A stretch of DNA of 64,000 bases from an uncultured Glaciecola sp. (lineage in GTDB: Bacteria > Pseudomonadota > Gammaproteobacteria > Enterobacterales > Alteromonadaceae): the NCBI GenBank assembly GCA_947496235.1, contig CANMCE010000008.1, positions 124,001 through 188,000 of the forward strand, given 5' to 3'. Made by a program: the position numbers and the translations under genes. The notes under the pieces are model-generated. The model ran no database searches. It worked only from the letters and a program-made list of their open reading frames with translations, and had not been told where the DNA came from. The first letter of the stretch is position 1. Each line of letters starts with the position of its first letter. Positions 9,226 to 14,323 of this stretch are shown here, piece after piece.

Positions 9226-10410
9226 ATGGCAAAAGAAAAGTTTGAACGTACGAAACCGCACGTAAACGTAGGTACAATCGGCCACGTTGACCACGGTAAA
9301 ACGACGTTAACAGCGGCAATCACTACTGTACTGGCAAAGACTTACGGTGGTAGTGCCCGCGCATTCGACCAAATCGATAACGCACCTGAAGAGCGTGAGC
9401 GTGGTATCACAATCGCAACTTCACACGTTGAATATGACACGCCTACACGTCACTACGCACACGTAGACTGTCCTGGACACGCTGACTATGTTAAAAACAT
9501 GATCACTGGTGCAGCACAGATGGACGGCGCAATCTTAGTAGTAGCAGCGACTGATGGCCCAATGCCACAGACGCGTGAGCACATCCTACTAGGTCGTCAG
9601 GTAGGTGTACCTTACATCATCGTATTCATGAACAAATGTGACATGGTTGATGATGAAGAACTACTAGAACTAGTAGAAATGGAAGTACGTGAATTACTTT
9701 CAGAATATGAATTCCCTGGCGATGACTTACCAGTAATCCAAGGTTCTGCACTTAAAGCCCTTGAAGGCGATGCAGAGTGGGAAAAGAAAATCGTAGAGCT
9801 AGGTGAAGCTTTAGATACTTATATCCCAGAGCCAGAGCGTGACATTGACAAGCCATTCATCTTGCCAATCGAAGACGTATTCTCAATCTCAGGTCGTGGT
9901 ACAGTTGTAACTGGCCGTGTTGAGCAAGGTATCGTTAAAGTAGGTGAAGAAGTAGAAATCGTTGGTATCAAAGCAACGACTAAGACGACTTGTACTGGTG
10001 TTGAAATGTTCCGTAAGTTGCTAGACGAAGGTCGTGCAGGTGAGAACGTTGGTGTACTACTACGTGGTACTAAGCGTGATGACGTAGAGCGTGGTCAAGT
10101 ATTGGCGAAGCCTGGTTCAATCAACCCACACACTAAGTTCGAAGCAGAAGTATACGTACTAAGCAAAGACGAAGGTGGCCGTCACACGCCATTCTTTAAA
10201 GGCTACCGTCCACAGTTCTACTTCCGTACAACTGACGTCACTGGTGCTGTAGAGTTACCAGAAGGCGTAGAAATGGTAATGCCTGGCGACAACTTGAAGT
10301 TTGTTGTTGAGCTAATTGCACCAATCGCGATGGACGAAGGTTTACGCTTCGCAATCCGTGAAGGTGGTCGTACAGTAGGTGCGGGTGTTGTAGCTAAAAT
10401 CTTAGCTTAA
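9226..10410 (+). CDS. tuf: Translation elongation factor Tu
   Basis: 394 residues, full length. The GTP-binding motifs [10 protein letters not shown] (P-loop), [17 protein letters not shown] and SAL are intact, followed by beta-barrel domains 2 and 3 ending VVAKILA. EF-Tu delivers aminoacyl-tRNA to the ribosome. Codon use is strongly biased, as expected for a very highly expressed gene. It lies 67 bp after fusA as last gene of the str operon and is followed by a strong terminator rather than by rpsJ and the S10 operon. Confidence 0.99.
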
Positions 10411-10434
10411 TATTCGAAACCACTAATCGATTCC

Positions 10435-10460
10435 AAAGGCCAGCTTATGCTGGCCTTTTT
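10435..10460 (+). terminator. Rho-independent terminator after tuf
   Basis: AAAGGCCAGC (10435-10444), loop TTAT, GCTGGCCTTT (10449-10458) and trailing T residues. It ends the str operon. Confidence 0.95.
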
Positions 10461-10792
10461 GTTATTCCAAACAATAAATTCCTACCTATTCCCACCATAA
10501 CAATTTTGTGTTTAATACCATTCAGGTATAAGCTTGCTATAGAGCCAAAACAAGCCAAGTTGACTCTACATAAAATCAGTAAAACGCTAGCGAAAACAGT
10601 AGGTAACAAAGAAATCCGTATTTAGCGAGAAAACCCTCTAAATACAGGCTCGCGAAATCCAGCCCTAATAAACCTAAACTAAAGTTGACCATTCGAAATT
10701 AAATGTTGTATAACAGTCATTTAGATTAAAAGGATATTGGCGATGAATCTACTGCACATTCGTACATATGCGAGATGCTCGCTAATAAGATT
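10461..10792. other. Gene-free spacer between tuf and the cassette array
   Basis: No convincing gene is seen. An 8-bp inverted repeat GTATTTAG/CTAAATAC lies near 10618-10645. A 29-codon frame from ATG 10743 with an AAGGA upstream runs across the array boundary and looks accidental. No integrase gene and no recognisable attI site are present, although this is where they would be expected. Confidence 0.5.
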
Positions 10793-11128
10793 TTCTGTGC
10801 CGCTGGCAAGAACACAAAAATTAACTAGTTAGATTGTGCGTCGGTGATCTGTTATTAAGTACAGTAGAAAAGTTTGAGCTTTTATGACACGCTTTTAGCG
10901 TCTGCGATGCTCGCGGAAAACGCAGTTTACCGGCGGACAACTCAGCCGCTAAAAGTGAGGCTTCAAACTCTTAGAAAGGCCAGCGGGGCATATGATTAAC
11001 ATGCAAAGATCGTCGATGCATAAGCTAAGCAAAGGATTAACAGTGTGAGCTCAGTCGTCATCTTCACAGAACAACCCGATTGCGACGGACACAATGCCTT
11101 ACAGGCATTCCGCCTCCCATCTTGACTG
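10793..11128 (+). mobile_element. Non-coding cassette, copy A
   Basis: First of three 336-bp copies of the same cassette. It begins TTCTGTGCCGCTGGC and ends at the G of its attC (R'' ACAGAAC 11066-11072). The base before the first TT is T rather than G, unlike copies B and C, so the left junction is degenerate or truncated. Internal hairpins can be drawn: AGTTTGAG...CGCTTTTAGCG against CGCTAAAAGTG...TTCAAACT, and GCGTCTGCG...ACGC. The + strand has no sizeable open frame. A 21-codon hydrophobic frame runs on the minus strand (10996-11061). Confidence 0.8.
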
Positions 11129-11134
11129 TTATGT
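11066..11134 (+). repeat. attC of non-coding cassette A (69 bp)
   Basis: R'' ACAGAAC (11066-11072) faces R' GTTATGT (11128-11134). Between them is a stem of GACGGACACAATGCC against GGCATTCCGCC with extrahelical bases and a TTACA loop. It is among the shortest sizes for attC. Confidence 0.75.
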
Positions 11135-11148
11135 GACTCAGGATATTC

Positions 11149-11556
11149 ATGGATAGAAACACTAAAAAAGCACTGAGATGGGATTCTGGTTACAGAACTA
11201 AACCAATCAAACCAGACAAAGCTTCCTTTTCAAGTGGCAAGTATTCTATGGCGTATGCGTGCCTCGACTGCAAAACCTCTTTTAAACGCAGCTTTCCTGG
11301 TGCGCCATGCGATTATCCATTGCACGGCCAGTGTGTTTCTTGTGGTGGTGTTACTTATAATTTAGGCCGGCATTTCAAAGCACCAAAAAAGTCGGATATT
11401 GCCCAATGGAAAAAGGTGGCATATCTCGTCCACCATGGTTTCTATTTTCAAAAAATCTGGCCTATCAAAAATAGCTATTTCAGCGTTTCTTACCCTTCAA
11501 CGTTGGCAGAAGCAAAAGTGTTTGTTAAAAAGTATAAAAAGCATGCTCTTATTTAG
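11149..11556 (+). CDS. Cassette 1: zinc-ribbon-like protein of unknown function
   Basis: 135 residues, ATG preceded by AGGA. Two CxxC pairs (CLDC near residue 43 and CVSC near residue 68) suggest a zinc ribbon. A basic patch follows (GRHFKAPKKSDIAQWKKV), then an aromatic segment (HHGFYFQKIWP). Proteins of this layout are common in environmental cassettes, but I know of no assigned role. The gene fills its cassette completely, starting 20 bp after the recombination point and ending 9 bp before the attC R'' box. It is probably expressed only from an upstream promoter, since none is visible in the cassette. Confidence 0.75.
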   Translation: MDRNTKKALRWDSGYRTKPIKPDKASFSSGKYSMAYACLDCKTSFKRSFPGAPCDYPLHGQCVSCGGVTYNLGRHFKAPKKSDIAQWKKVAYLVHHGFYFQKIWPIKNSYFSVSYPSTLAEAKVFVKKYKKHALI

Positions 11557-11565
11557 GGTAAAGTC

Positions 11566-11671
11566 ACATAACAAAAAAATTATGTCGCCCGCAGGCGGGC
11601 TGGGACACAAACACGCAGGCGGCTTCGCCATTATAGCTTGCCTGTTTGTGCCCCATATTTAGGTGTTCTGT
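11566..11671 (+). repeat. attC of cassette 1 (106 bp)
   Basis: R'' ACATAAC (11566-11572) complements the cassette's own first bases (TTATGT at 11129). R' is GTTCTGT (11665-11671), contributed by the following non-coding cassette. Long paired arms GGGACACAAACACGCAGGC against GCCTGTTTGTGCCCC. Confidence 0.85.
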
Positions 11672-12001
11672 GCCGCTGGCAAGAACACCAAATTTAATAA
11701 GGTAGATTGTGCATCGGCGATCTGTTATTAAGTACAGTAGAAAAGTTTGAGCTTTTATGACACGCTTTTAGCGTCTGCGATGCTCGCGGAAAACGTAGTT
11801 TGCCGGCGGACAACTCAGCCGCTAAAAGTGAGGCTTCAAACTCTTATACAGGCCAGCGGGGCATATGATTAACATGCAAAGATCGTCGATGCATAAGCTA
11901 AGCAAAGGATTAACAGCGTGAGCTCAGTCGTCATCTTCACAGAACAACCCGATCGGGACGGACACAATGCCTTACAGGCATTCCGCCGCCCATCTTAACT
12001 G
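11666..12001 (+). mobile_element. Non-coding cassette, copy B
   Basis: 336 bp, same length as copies A and C and about 97-98% identical to copy C by eye. It starts G^TTCTGT after the attC of cassette 1 and ends G^TTAGGT before cassette 2, so both ends are clean integron recombination points. Confidence 0.85.
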
Positions 12002-12007
12002 TTAGGT
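11939..12007 (+). repeat. attC of non-coding cassette B (69 bp)
   Basis: R'' ACAGAAC (11939-11945), L-box stem GGGACGGACACAATGCC against GGCATTCCGCCGCCC, loop TTACA, R' GTTAGGT (12001-12007). Confidence 0.8.
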
Positions 12008-12024
12008 GGCAAAAGGATCTTTTG

Positions 12025-12429
12025 ATGAGGTTTTTCATAAGCGGGGAAATTGATTGGACTGTTGATAAAGAGTTTCAAAGGGCATCATTGGCAGTTAGGA
12101 ATACACTAGAAGAATTCTTAAATCAGCGAGATTATGGAAGCGAGCTGAAAGAACTGAATATTTTCCCCATAATTGAAAATGCTCCACGAGAAATGATTGA
12201 GCAAGGTTGGCACAAAGAAAGGAAATTATTCAAACGTTCTTCTAAATCCTCAGACTTCCGCCTCAAAATAGATTATCACGCATTCCTGAATGGTTCTGAT
12301 AGTGATAGGGTAAATTTAATAGTGAAGAATATTTTAACTGCTGTTGAAATACTTGGTATCAGAGCAAAAAAGGATTTTGATCATGAAAGGCTTAAACAAG
12401 ACATCCTTAATTGTTTTGACAAAGTGTAA
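12025..12429 (+). CDS. Cassette 2: probable Imm44-type immunity protein
   Basis: 134 residues starting MRFFISGEIDW at ATG 12025 with AAGGA upstream (a TTG lies directly before it). The N-terminal FISGEID followed by RNTLEEFLN, YGSELKEL and FPIIE resembles the Imm44 family of immunity proteins from polymorphic toxin systems, recognised from memory of the family pattern and not from a search. No cognate toxin is encoded beside it; immunity genes without their toxin are frequent in cassette arrays and would protect against toxins delivered by neighbours. The family assignment is tentative. Confidence 0.55.
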   Translation: MRFFISGEIDWTVDKEFQRASLAVRNTLEEFLNQRDYGSELKELNIFPIIENAPREMIEQGWHKERKLFKRSSKSSDFRLKIDYHAFLNGSDSDRVNLIVKNILTAVEILGIRAKKDFDHERLKQDILNCFDKV

Positions 12430-12454
12430 GAACTTTAGGTTGTATAAGCATGTC

Positions 12455-12560
12455 ACCTAACAAAAAAATTATGTCGCCCGCAGGCGGGCTGGGACACAAA
12501 CACGCAGGCGGCTTCGCCATGATCGCCTGCCTGGTTGTGCCCCATATTTAGAAGTTCTGT
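12455..12560 (+). repeat. attC of cassette 2 (106 bp)
   Basis: R'' ACCTAAC (12455-12461) matches the cassette start TTAGGT (12002). The rest is nearly identical to the attC of cassette 1. R' GTTCTGT (12554-12560). Confidence 0.85.
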
Positions 12561-12890
12561 GCCGCTGGCTAGAACACCAAAGTTAATAAGGTAGATTGTG
12601 CATCGGCGATCTGTTATTAAGTACAGTAGAAAAGTTTGAGCTTTTATGACACGCTTTTAGCGTCTGCGATGCTCGCGGAAAACGCAGTTTACCGGCGGAC
12701 AACTCAGCCGCTAAAAGTGAGGCTTCAAACTCTTATACAGGCCAGCGGGGCATTTGATTAACATGCAAAGATCGTCGATGCATAAGCTAAGCAAAGGATT
12801 AACAGTGTGAGCTCAGTCGTCATCTTCACAGAACAACCCGATCGGGACGGACACAATGCCTTACAGGCATTCCGCCGCCCATCTTAACTG
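12555..12890 (+). mobile_element. Non-coding cassette, copy C
   Basis: Third 336-bp copy, with clean G^TTCTGT and G^TTATGT junctions. It lies between cassettes 2 and 3. Confidence 0.85.
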
Positions 12891-12896
12891 TTATGT
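12828..12896 (+). repeat. attC of non-coding cassette C (69 bp)
   Basis: R'' ACAGAAC (12828-12834), the same stem and TTACA loop as copy B, R' GTTATGT (12890-12896). Confidence 0.8.
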
Positions 12897-12911
12897 GCCC
12901 AAGGTAACCCG

Positions 12912-13229
12912 ATGCTCAGTGTAATGAATAACACTAAATGGGAAGAGTTGTGTTCAGAAATGTACGAACTTAAAGCATCTTCTCCACAGTGGCGGACTAA
13001 AGATCTGACTACTGGGTATTTATCTCCATGGGATGGTGATTGGTTTTATCATTTCAGAGAAGGTGGCTTTGATTCGATTGAATGGGTCGAATTAAAGATT
13101 GATAGCACCGCTCAATATGAAATCGTCTTAGGTATTTTAAAGCAAATTAATCTACCAGGCTCTAAAAGTGAGAGTGGGTTCAAAATATATGGTTACGTCC
13201 CAATGAGTCAGTACGTTGAATACATATAG
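12912..13229 (+). CDS. Cassette 3: DUF6678-like protein
   Basis: 105 residues. The motifs NNTKWEEL, SPQWRTKDL, SPWDGDWFYHFREGGF, SIEWVEL and YGYVPMSQYVEYI fit the DUF6678 family as I remember it; function unknown. AAGG lies 7 bp before ATG 12912, and a second in-frame ATG at 12924 would give the family-typical MNNTKW start. The acidic, Trp-rich composition resembles immunity-type small proteins, but that is inference. The gene ends three bases before its attC. Confidence 0.65.
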   Translation: MLSVMNNTKWEELCSEMYELKASSPQWRTKDLTTGYLSPWDGDWFYHFREGGFDSIEWVELKIDSTAQYEIVLGILKQINLPGSKSESGFKIYGYVPMSQYVEYI

Positions 13230-13751: not shown

Positions 13752-14062
<311 letters not shown>

Positions 14063-14073
<11 letters not shown>

Positions 14074-14323
14074 ATATGACTTTTCCAAATCAAAGTCTGC
14101 AAGCGAAATTCCTCACTTAGCTAAACTACAAAGTGAAGGCAAAAGTAGAATTACAATTATGCTCGATAATGACATTTTAGATTTTTATCGAGATAGAGCT
14201 AAATTTGAGGGAATTGGTTATCAAACCCTAATTAATGCAACTCTTAGAGAAGCTGTCCAAGCAAAGCCTCTGGACGAAGAAGCCTTACGGCGTATTTTGC
14301 GTGAAGAGTTGAAAACTTCGTAA
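14063..14323 (+). CDS. brnA: BrnA-type antitoxin
   Basis: 86 residues. The N-terminus (MKDEYDFSKSKSA) and the ribbon-helix-helix-like C-terminal half (RITIMLDNDILDFYRDRA, then GIGYQTLINATLREAV) match BrnA/DUF4415 antitoxins, which bind BrnT and repress the shared promoter. The start overlaps the end of brnT. The antitoxin is intact although the toxin frame is broken. Confidence 0.85.

Follow-up and report, generated by a model that had tools for sequence, protein, structure and literature searches.

Integron cassettes that carry no gene, that act as promoters, or that are non-coding and repeated are already known. The paralogous non-coding cassettes of Vibrio (Boucher et al. 2006, PMC1382264) are, like the unit described here, non-coding, repeated and conserved between species, and selfish, promoter or RNA roles were proposed for them; they are set apart from our unit by description, since no conserved fold, first-place preference or homologues outside vibrios are reported in the accessible part of that paper. 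Gene-less promoter cassettes (Blanco et al. 2024, PMC11014356; Tansirichaiya et al. 2019, PMC6557892) are also placed upstream of promoterless cassettes, and TMB4 of Treponema stood first in its array (PMC6557892). As far as the accessible parts of these sources go, such cassettes are defined by measured activity, whereas the unit here has a covarying fold and no convincing sigma-70 promoter. Small RNAs were not excluded for gene-less cassettes in the consulted part of Blanco et al. (PMC11014356), and the terms 'paralog', 'secondary structure' and 'srna' are absent from the main text of that paper.

An RNA cassette present in several species is exemplified by sRNA-Xcc1 of Xanthomonas (Chen et al. 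2011, cited in PMC12444791 and PMC6557892), which, according to the available part of the source, is however trans-acting, lies beside symE and is oriented against Pc (PMC12444791), while our unit has no counterpart in Rfam. The 'empty' cassette of Xanthomonas (PMC12444791) is likewise gene-less and can recur within an array, and is set apart by description, with no fold or sequence given in the accessible portion of the paper. The ORF-less cassette of Shewanella inventionis, for which a non-coding RNA was suggested (PMC9229058), is a single case that we liken by its partial description, and a 2022 review, as far as available, ties a putative small RNA to duplicated integron cassettes in another genus. 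Among the literature matches listed, judged by title and start of abstract and with subscription papers mostly uncovered, no structured non-coding cassette family was described in the genera considered here.

Copies, boundaries and array in the window

The window, that is, the whole analysed stretch of 64,000 nucleotides from an uncultured Glaciecola, contains a cassette array situated after fusA-tuf and a terminator-like hairpin. Its relevant features are as follows.

10435..10458, plus strand: terminator-like hairpin after tuf, ahead of the array
10690..10792, plus strand: flank ahead of copy A, ending in GCTAATAAGATT; attI-like by eye
10793..11128, plus strand: non-coding cassette copy A, 336 bp, the first cassette of the array
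11066..11134, plus strand: attC of copy A, next core included (that of B from 11939, that of C from 12828), 69 bp each
11149..11556, plus strand: coding cassette after A, 135 aa, no Pfam match
11666..12001, plus strand: non-coding cassette copy B, 336 bp
12025..12429, plus strand: coding cassette after B, Imm44 immunity-protein family
12555..12890, plus strand: non-coding cassette copy C, 336 bp
12912..13229, plus strand: coding cassette after C, DUF6678

The preliminary description had pointed to three near-identical copies alternating with coding cassettes, and our analysis bears this out: the lengths are exact, A is 95% and C 98% identical to B (A and C agree at 321/336 positions), and the array runs in the order A, 135-aa ORF, B, Imm44, C, DUF6678, a sub-threshold SUKH gene, BrnT/BrnA and DUF4160/DUF2442. 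The BrnT/BrnA toxin-antitoxin cassette occupies window positions 13770-14323, with BrnT split over two frames, and BrnT therefore looks broken. A DNA search of the own genome found no further full-length copy besides these three. At C1:586681-586743 (L004) there is a lone piece of 63 bp, 89% identical to the unit's end (attC) and without its body.

It had also been claimed that each copy has an attC and core of its own, distinct from those of the coding cassettes, and this holds. The site at the 3' end of each copy runs from ACAGAAC through the end of the next core, and ACAGAAC can pair with TTCTGT, the start of the same unit. In the two coding cassettes that separate the copies the attC is another one, 106 bp long, and by eye nearly alike in both. 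The base preceding copy A is T, where a G|TT junction would predict G. No integrase gene lies beside the window array: the genome's five integrase-model matches are all off contig C8, and the sole match above the cut-off is on contig C19. Upstream of the genome's intI on C19 (L016, positions 1-360) lies what we take to be the end of a group II intron maturase.

The second tuf copy of the genome (contig C25; L097, L109) has a flank of ~380 bp homologous to the tuf flank of the window, and a different cassette-like sequence begins there at the point where copy A starts in the window; judging from this shared flank with cassette-like sequence after it, an array appears to start behind each of the two tuf copies. 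Adjacency to tuf as a general rule was rejected: among the inspected tuf flanks of the genus, several of which end at contig ends, arrays were found only in the own genome (at both tuf copies) and in G006.

The unit is non-coding, as had been proposed from the lack of an obvious gene. The longest frames in the window copies are of 41 aa, below the 70 aa taken as the limit for gene-less promoter cassettes. A protein gene was considered and rejected: in the 41-aa frame shared by the window copies and L084, copy B and L084 differ by 10 non-synonymous and one synonymous codon changes, distributed 4/5/4 by codon position (differences by phase over the unit are 17/20/24), and in 6/6 units tried from other lineages the homologous reading frame ends in a stop codon after 7-27 residues. 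Frames over 70 aa do occur within lineage 6, where L079 contains two ATG frames, 82 and 91 aa long, and an open 93-aa frame on the minus strand is common to L086 and L079. Among the copies examined, the unit was not confined to a longer protein-coding gene.

A family of cassettes

The unit, searched for in genomes as the preliminary description had advised, turned out to be an independent cassette family present in many arrays with different neighbours. We count 28 complete-looking copies: three in the window, 19 in the GTDB collection, one in G393, and those of L132, L133, L134, L139 and L148 (in L148 the model match begins at position 83, and the 5' part was read by eye). Left out of this count are the degraded units of L135, L136, L149 and L150, the partial match G402:C24 and minus-strand model matches to the same hairpins. 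The hosts belong to Glaciecola/Ningiella, Alteromonas, Rheinheimera and Arsukibacterium and, more distantly, to two further families of the order. In the GTDB collection a degenerate hairpin pattern matched 19 times, on 15 contigs, 13 of which are named Alteromonas, Rheinheimera, Arsukibacterium, Ningiella or Glaciecola, the other two being MAGs called only Gammaproteobacteria.

By DNA search, matches were found in 4/13 genomes of the genus, the own one included, and with the Ningiella unit as query in 9/395 genomes of the family, some via short end pieces only. In searches with covariance models, which when spanning more than 40 genomes used stricter filters and so lost weak matches, model R1 matched 12/395 genomes of the family, and model R2 matched 7/394 genomes of the order, with families f6 and f15 represented, and in further searches 5/152 genomes of f6, 1/5 of f15 and 1/369 in a class sample, this last one being the own genome. 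An exact 25-base window pattern had no match in the genome contig collection.

Carriage by plasmids, phages or viruses was also considered and rejected, as searches with the window unit found nothing in plasmids or phages, and the window hairpin pattern was absent from viral contigs. The stretches bearing the units of L143, L080 and L073 gave no plasmid match, and from L144 the flank ahead of the unit alone matched, in seven plasmid records, one of which reaches ~11 bases into the unit.

Cassette boundaries were readable in 21/23 copies and gave an attC with a first arm that can pair with the core of the same unit; the two failures are the second copy of L077, with a deletion through the attC arm, and the first copy of L083, where the next core is GTTGGGC. 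The end of L085 as set is probably too early. The units lie between unrelated cassettes and in the same orientation.

In the degraded units of family f6 (L135, L136, L149, L150) the 3' half and attC are kept, while the 5' half is different and partly shared between them; this replaced half contains TTGACC and an ACAAA-type sequence and may be promoter-like. By eye, the genes after degraded units in L149 and L146 resemble those for an OLD-type ATPase and a defence-system nucleotidyltransferase, and the nucleotidyltransferase-like gene had no Pfam match.

A fold under selection

Nested hairpins had been taken as a sign of a structured element, and a covariation analysis had been advised. Our analysis agrees with that reading and delimits a folded element of ~185 nt, in which a closing helix, P1, encloses the bulged hairpin P2/P3, whose bulge is conserved and rich in T (U in RNA).

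10800..10807, plus strand: helix P1 5' arm in copy A (B 11673-11680, C 12562-12569)
10872..10968, plus strand: main bulged hairpin P2/P3 in copy A (B 11745-11841, C 12634-12730)
10979..10986, plus strand: helix P1 3' arm in copy A (B 11852-11859, C 12741-12748)

The hairpin pattern occurs three times in the window and in none of 100 dinucleotide shuffles. While body identity between seven representatives is 38-84%, the stretch from one P1 arm to the other measures 182-190 nt in all 17 sequences measured.

The 8-bp 5' arms of P1 in five lineages are CCGCTGGC, CCGCTGCC, ACACGGGC, GCACGAGC and CTCGCCGG, each complemented by a 3' arm of the same lineage that follows the hairpin at a distance of 7-11 nt. 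With the 3' arm chosen as the best complement within 30 positions, 39/40 pairs over the five lineage sequences are Watson-Crick, and among 120 assignments of arms the true one alone attains 39. L079, whose arm contains one T-G pair, stood outside this test. P1 was counted on hand-set arms because helix P2 is absent from models R1 and R2 and, in the MAFFT alignment from which R2 was built, P1 is out of place in two lineages. For the hairpin arms of eight types, the observed summed energy was equalled by one of 20000 random assignments and none was lower; the own partner is the best one for types g3, g4, g4b and g6, while for g1a, g1b and g2 the Alteromonas 3' arm is a better partner than their own, and for g5 the 3' arm of g6 is. 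Two Alteromonas types differ through a compensated change.

Alignment A3, comprising eight distinct rows from lineages 1-4, has 97.7% of paired cells against 85.1% in shuffled alignments, double changes in 15/32 pairs against 7.1, and a covariation of 0.377 against 0.130, none of 500 shuffles being as high in any of the three; further pair types number 19 against 15.2, a value that 12/500 shuffles reach. Slid controls stood at 0.03-0.11, a comparison that favours the structure because it was derived from the same A3 sequences. The compensatory changes preserve helices P1 and P2/P3, and the fold is under selection. In the distant L132, L133, L139 and L148, P1 is found at about the same place, which for this helix alone is within chance (41, 140, 125 and 128 of 500 shuffles, respectively, reach the observed value), and single-sequence folding gave L084 without the main hairpin and L073 without P1.

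The whole window had no Rfam match at the gathering threshold. A known RNA family, sRNA-Xcc1 or another from Rfam, was rejected, as relaxed searches gave sub-gathering matches alone, for instance a miRNA model on a perfect hairpin of L011, below threshold.

The strand on which the fold operates bears on its nature. Single-sequence energies of the seven representatives are below those of shuffles on both strands (z of -1.7 to -7.5 on the plus and -2.4 to -6.3 on the minus strand), the minus-strand scores being as strong as the plus ones and stronger in 4/7. Wobble pairs point in both directions: a G-T pair in P3 is kept across the lineages compared, but A-C cells at two positions argue for the opposite strand. 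A fold present on both strands would be compatible with a DNA hairpin as well, and one may suggest that the unit acts at the DNA level, as a selfish element folding as single-stranded DNA or cruciform in integrase recombination, unusually mobile and re-landing at attI; such frequent re-insertion could also be the source of its first place. The consensus fold, which pairs the cassette start first with its own attC arm and then with P1, the many copies, and the selfish role put forward for non-coding cassettes in the accessible part of Boucher et al. (2006, PMC1382264) agree with this suggestion. Free re-insertion at attI should, however, sometimes yield tandems of units, and none of 30 next cassettes (those after the 28 complete-looking and two degraded copies, with the first 40 bases compared) starts like the unit; moreover, as read from the sequence, GTT precedes AAC in the body, an order opposite to that of an attC. 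Altogether, we regard action at the DNA level as unlikely.

Place of the unit in arrays

The unit is the first cassette in 10/28 copies, i.e. in 10/14 arrays with a placeable start, a set biased toward copies near the start. At the first-place copies of L073 and L079 the attI side adjoins intI, and likewise at L139 (locus L145). For L077 and L086 the flank shows homology (42 bp at 93%, 178 bp at 85%) to the attI flanks found in L073 and L079, with no intI after the flank within the locus. The flanks of the window, L084, L132, L133 and L148 end in a TAATA motif, as does the one before L139, and no intI was found within the stretches inspected around these five. In all four records inspected out of the seven matching plasmid records, the flank of L133 appears as a ~40-bp site directly before G|TT with four different sequences after it; one of these plasmid sites (L151-L154) heads a dfrA1 cassette, and one is adjoined by an integrase-like remnant of ~50 aa (E 8e-9), no annotated integrase being seen in the plasmid stretches. 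The same site preceding four different sequences supports a reading of the TAATA-type flanks as attI-type sites, to which the window flank, resembling by eye those that precede first-place copies elsewhere, is likened by eye only.

Later positions are also taken: the unit is second in L075 and third in Alteromonas sp. LOR, and the distance from unit to intI is ~2.6 kb in R. tangshanensis and ~4.4 kb in Rheinheimera sp. D18. An ORF of at least 50 aa follows within 92 bp in 28/30 and within 42 bp in 24/30 cases, the exceptions being L072, with the ORF at 132 bp, and the second copy of L073, at a contig end. The order attI-unit-ORF-unit-ORF beside intI is also found in another genus (L145), and the proteins encoded behind the units (nine scanned) have no family in common.

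First place and spacing ahead of ORFs would be unexpected if the cassette served to produce a trans-acting small RNA, with copy number as dosage and array place incidental. The conserved structure with its conserved unpaired T-rich stretch, the repeated copies and the precedent of sRNA-Xcc1, as presented in the accessible parts of PMC6557892 and PMC12444791, speak for such an RNA, but neither a plus-strand terminator was found in the window units nor a match in Rfam, and we consider a small RNA acting in trans quite improbable.

Promoter scans

The preliminary description had envisaged a promoter inside the copies, and here the sequence gives no support. A consensus promoter scan of 10400-13000 yielded two sites where 5.0 were expected, and both fall within the Imm44 cassette. 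In a weighted sigma-70-like scan of 17 units with 60 shuffles each, the best plus-strand scores ranged from clearly below to ~0.5 sd above the shuffle mean. Copy B, L084, L085 and the Alteromonas units share one weak candidate, TTG... combined with TAAAAG or TAAAGT, located on the 3' arm of P3; in lineages 2, 5 and 6 it is missing from the top three. According to the available part of Blanco et al. (2024, PMC11014356), promoters of gene-less cassettes could not be predicted in silico, so our scan is weak evidence either way.

These results bear on the proposal that the unit is a promoter cassette in the sense of Blanco et al., merely supplying transcription for the next cassette, with the fold as a by-product. 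Most gene-less Vibrio cassettes tested had promoter activity, as stated in the consulted part of that work (PMC11014356), the window array lies behind a terminator-like hairpin and without an adjacent intI, and the recurrence of the weak candidate at P3 would fit as well. However, that candidate and all best scores are within the shuffle range, it is outside the top three in three lineages, and covariation is unexplained by a promoter alone; we hold this proposal to be very unlikely.

The unit as a putative movable leader

It would be logical to suggest that this repeated, non-coding cassette family, often first in its arrays and with a fold under selection, is a mobile cassette for a structured RNA, which most likely acts in cis as a leader of the cassette that follows, and we would give this reading a probability of about one half, judging from sequence comparison. 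It takes the fold to be that of an RNA, with plus as the working strand and the next cassette as the target in cis, and these points we infer. Transcripts entering at attI, or starting in the unit, would carry it as a 5' leader into the next cassette, whose ORF starts so near that little space is left for a separate promoter. The effect of the leader may consist in read-through of attC hairpins, in RNA stability, or in an internal promoter. Acting as a movable leader, as we propose, would account for the frequent first place at attI and for the repeats before coding cassettes. It is conceivable, if doubtful, that the unit more specifically represents a structured-RNA class that travels as a cassette and serves as a movable leader, for example one keeping polymerase or ribosomes going through attC hairpins.

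The role of non-coding cassettes has been open in print since at least 2006, as the accessible part of PMC1382264 indicates. The family described here combines a defined covarying fold, hosts that include named strains, a frequent first position at attI and natural interleaving with genes. As the fold gives specific pairs to break and restore, the selfish, promoter and RNA proposals become separable by ordinary assays. If the units form such an RNA class of movable leaders, arrays would consist of leader-plus-gene modules, rather than being ordered only by distance from one promoter.
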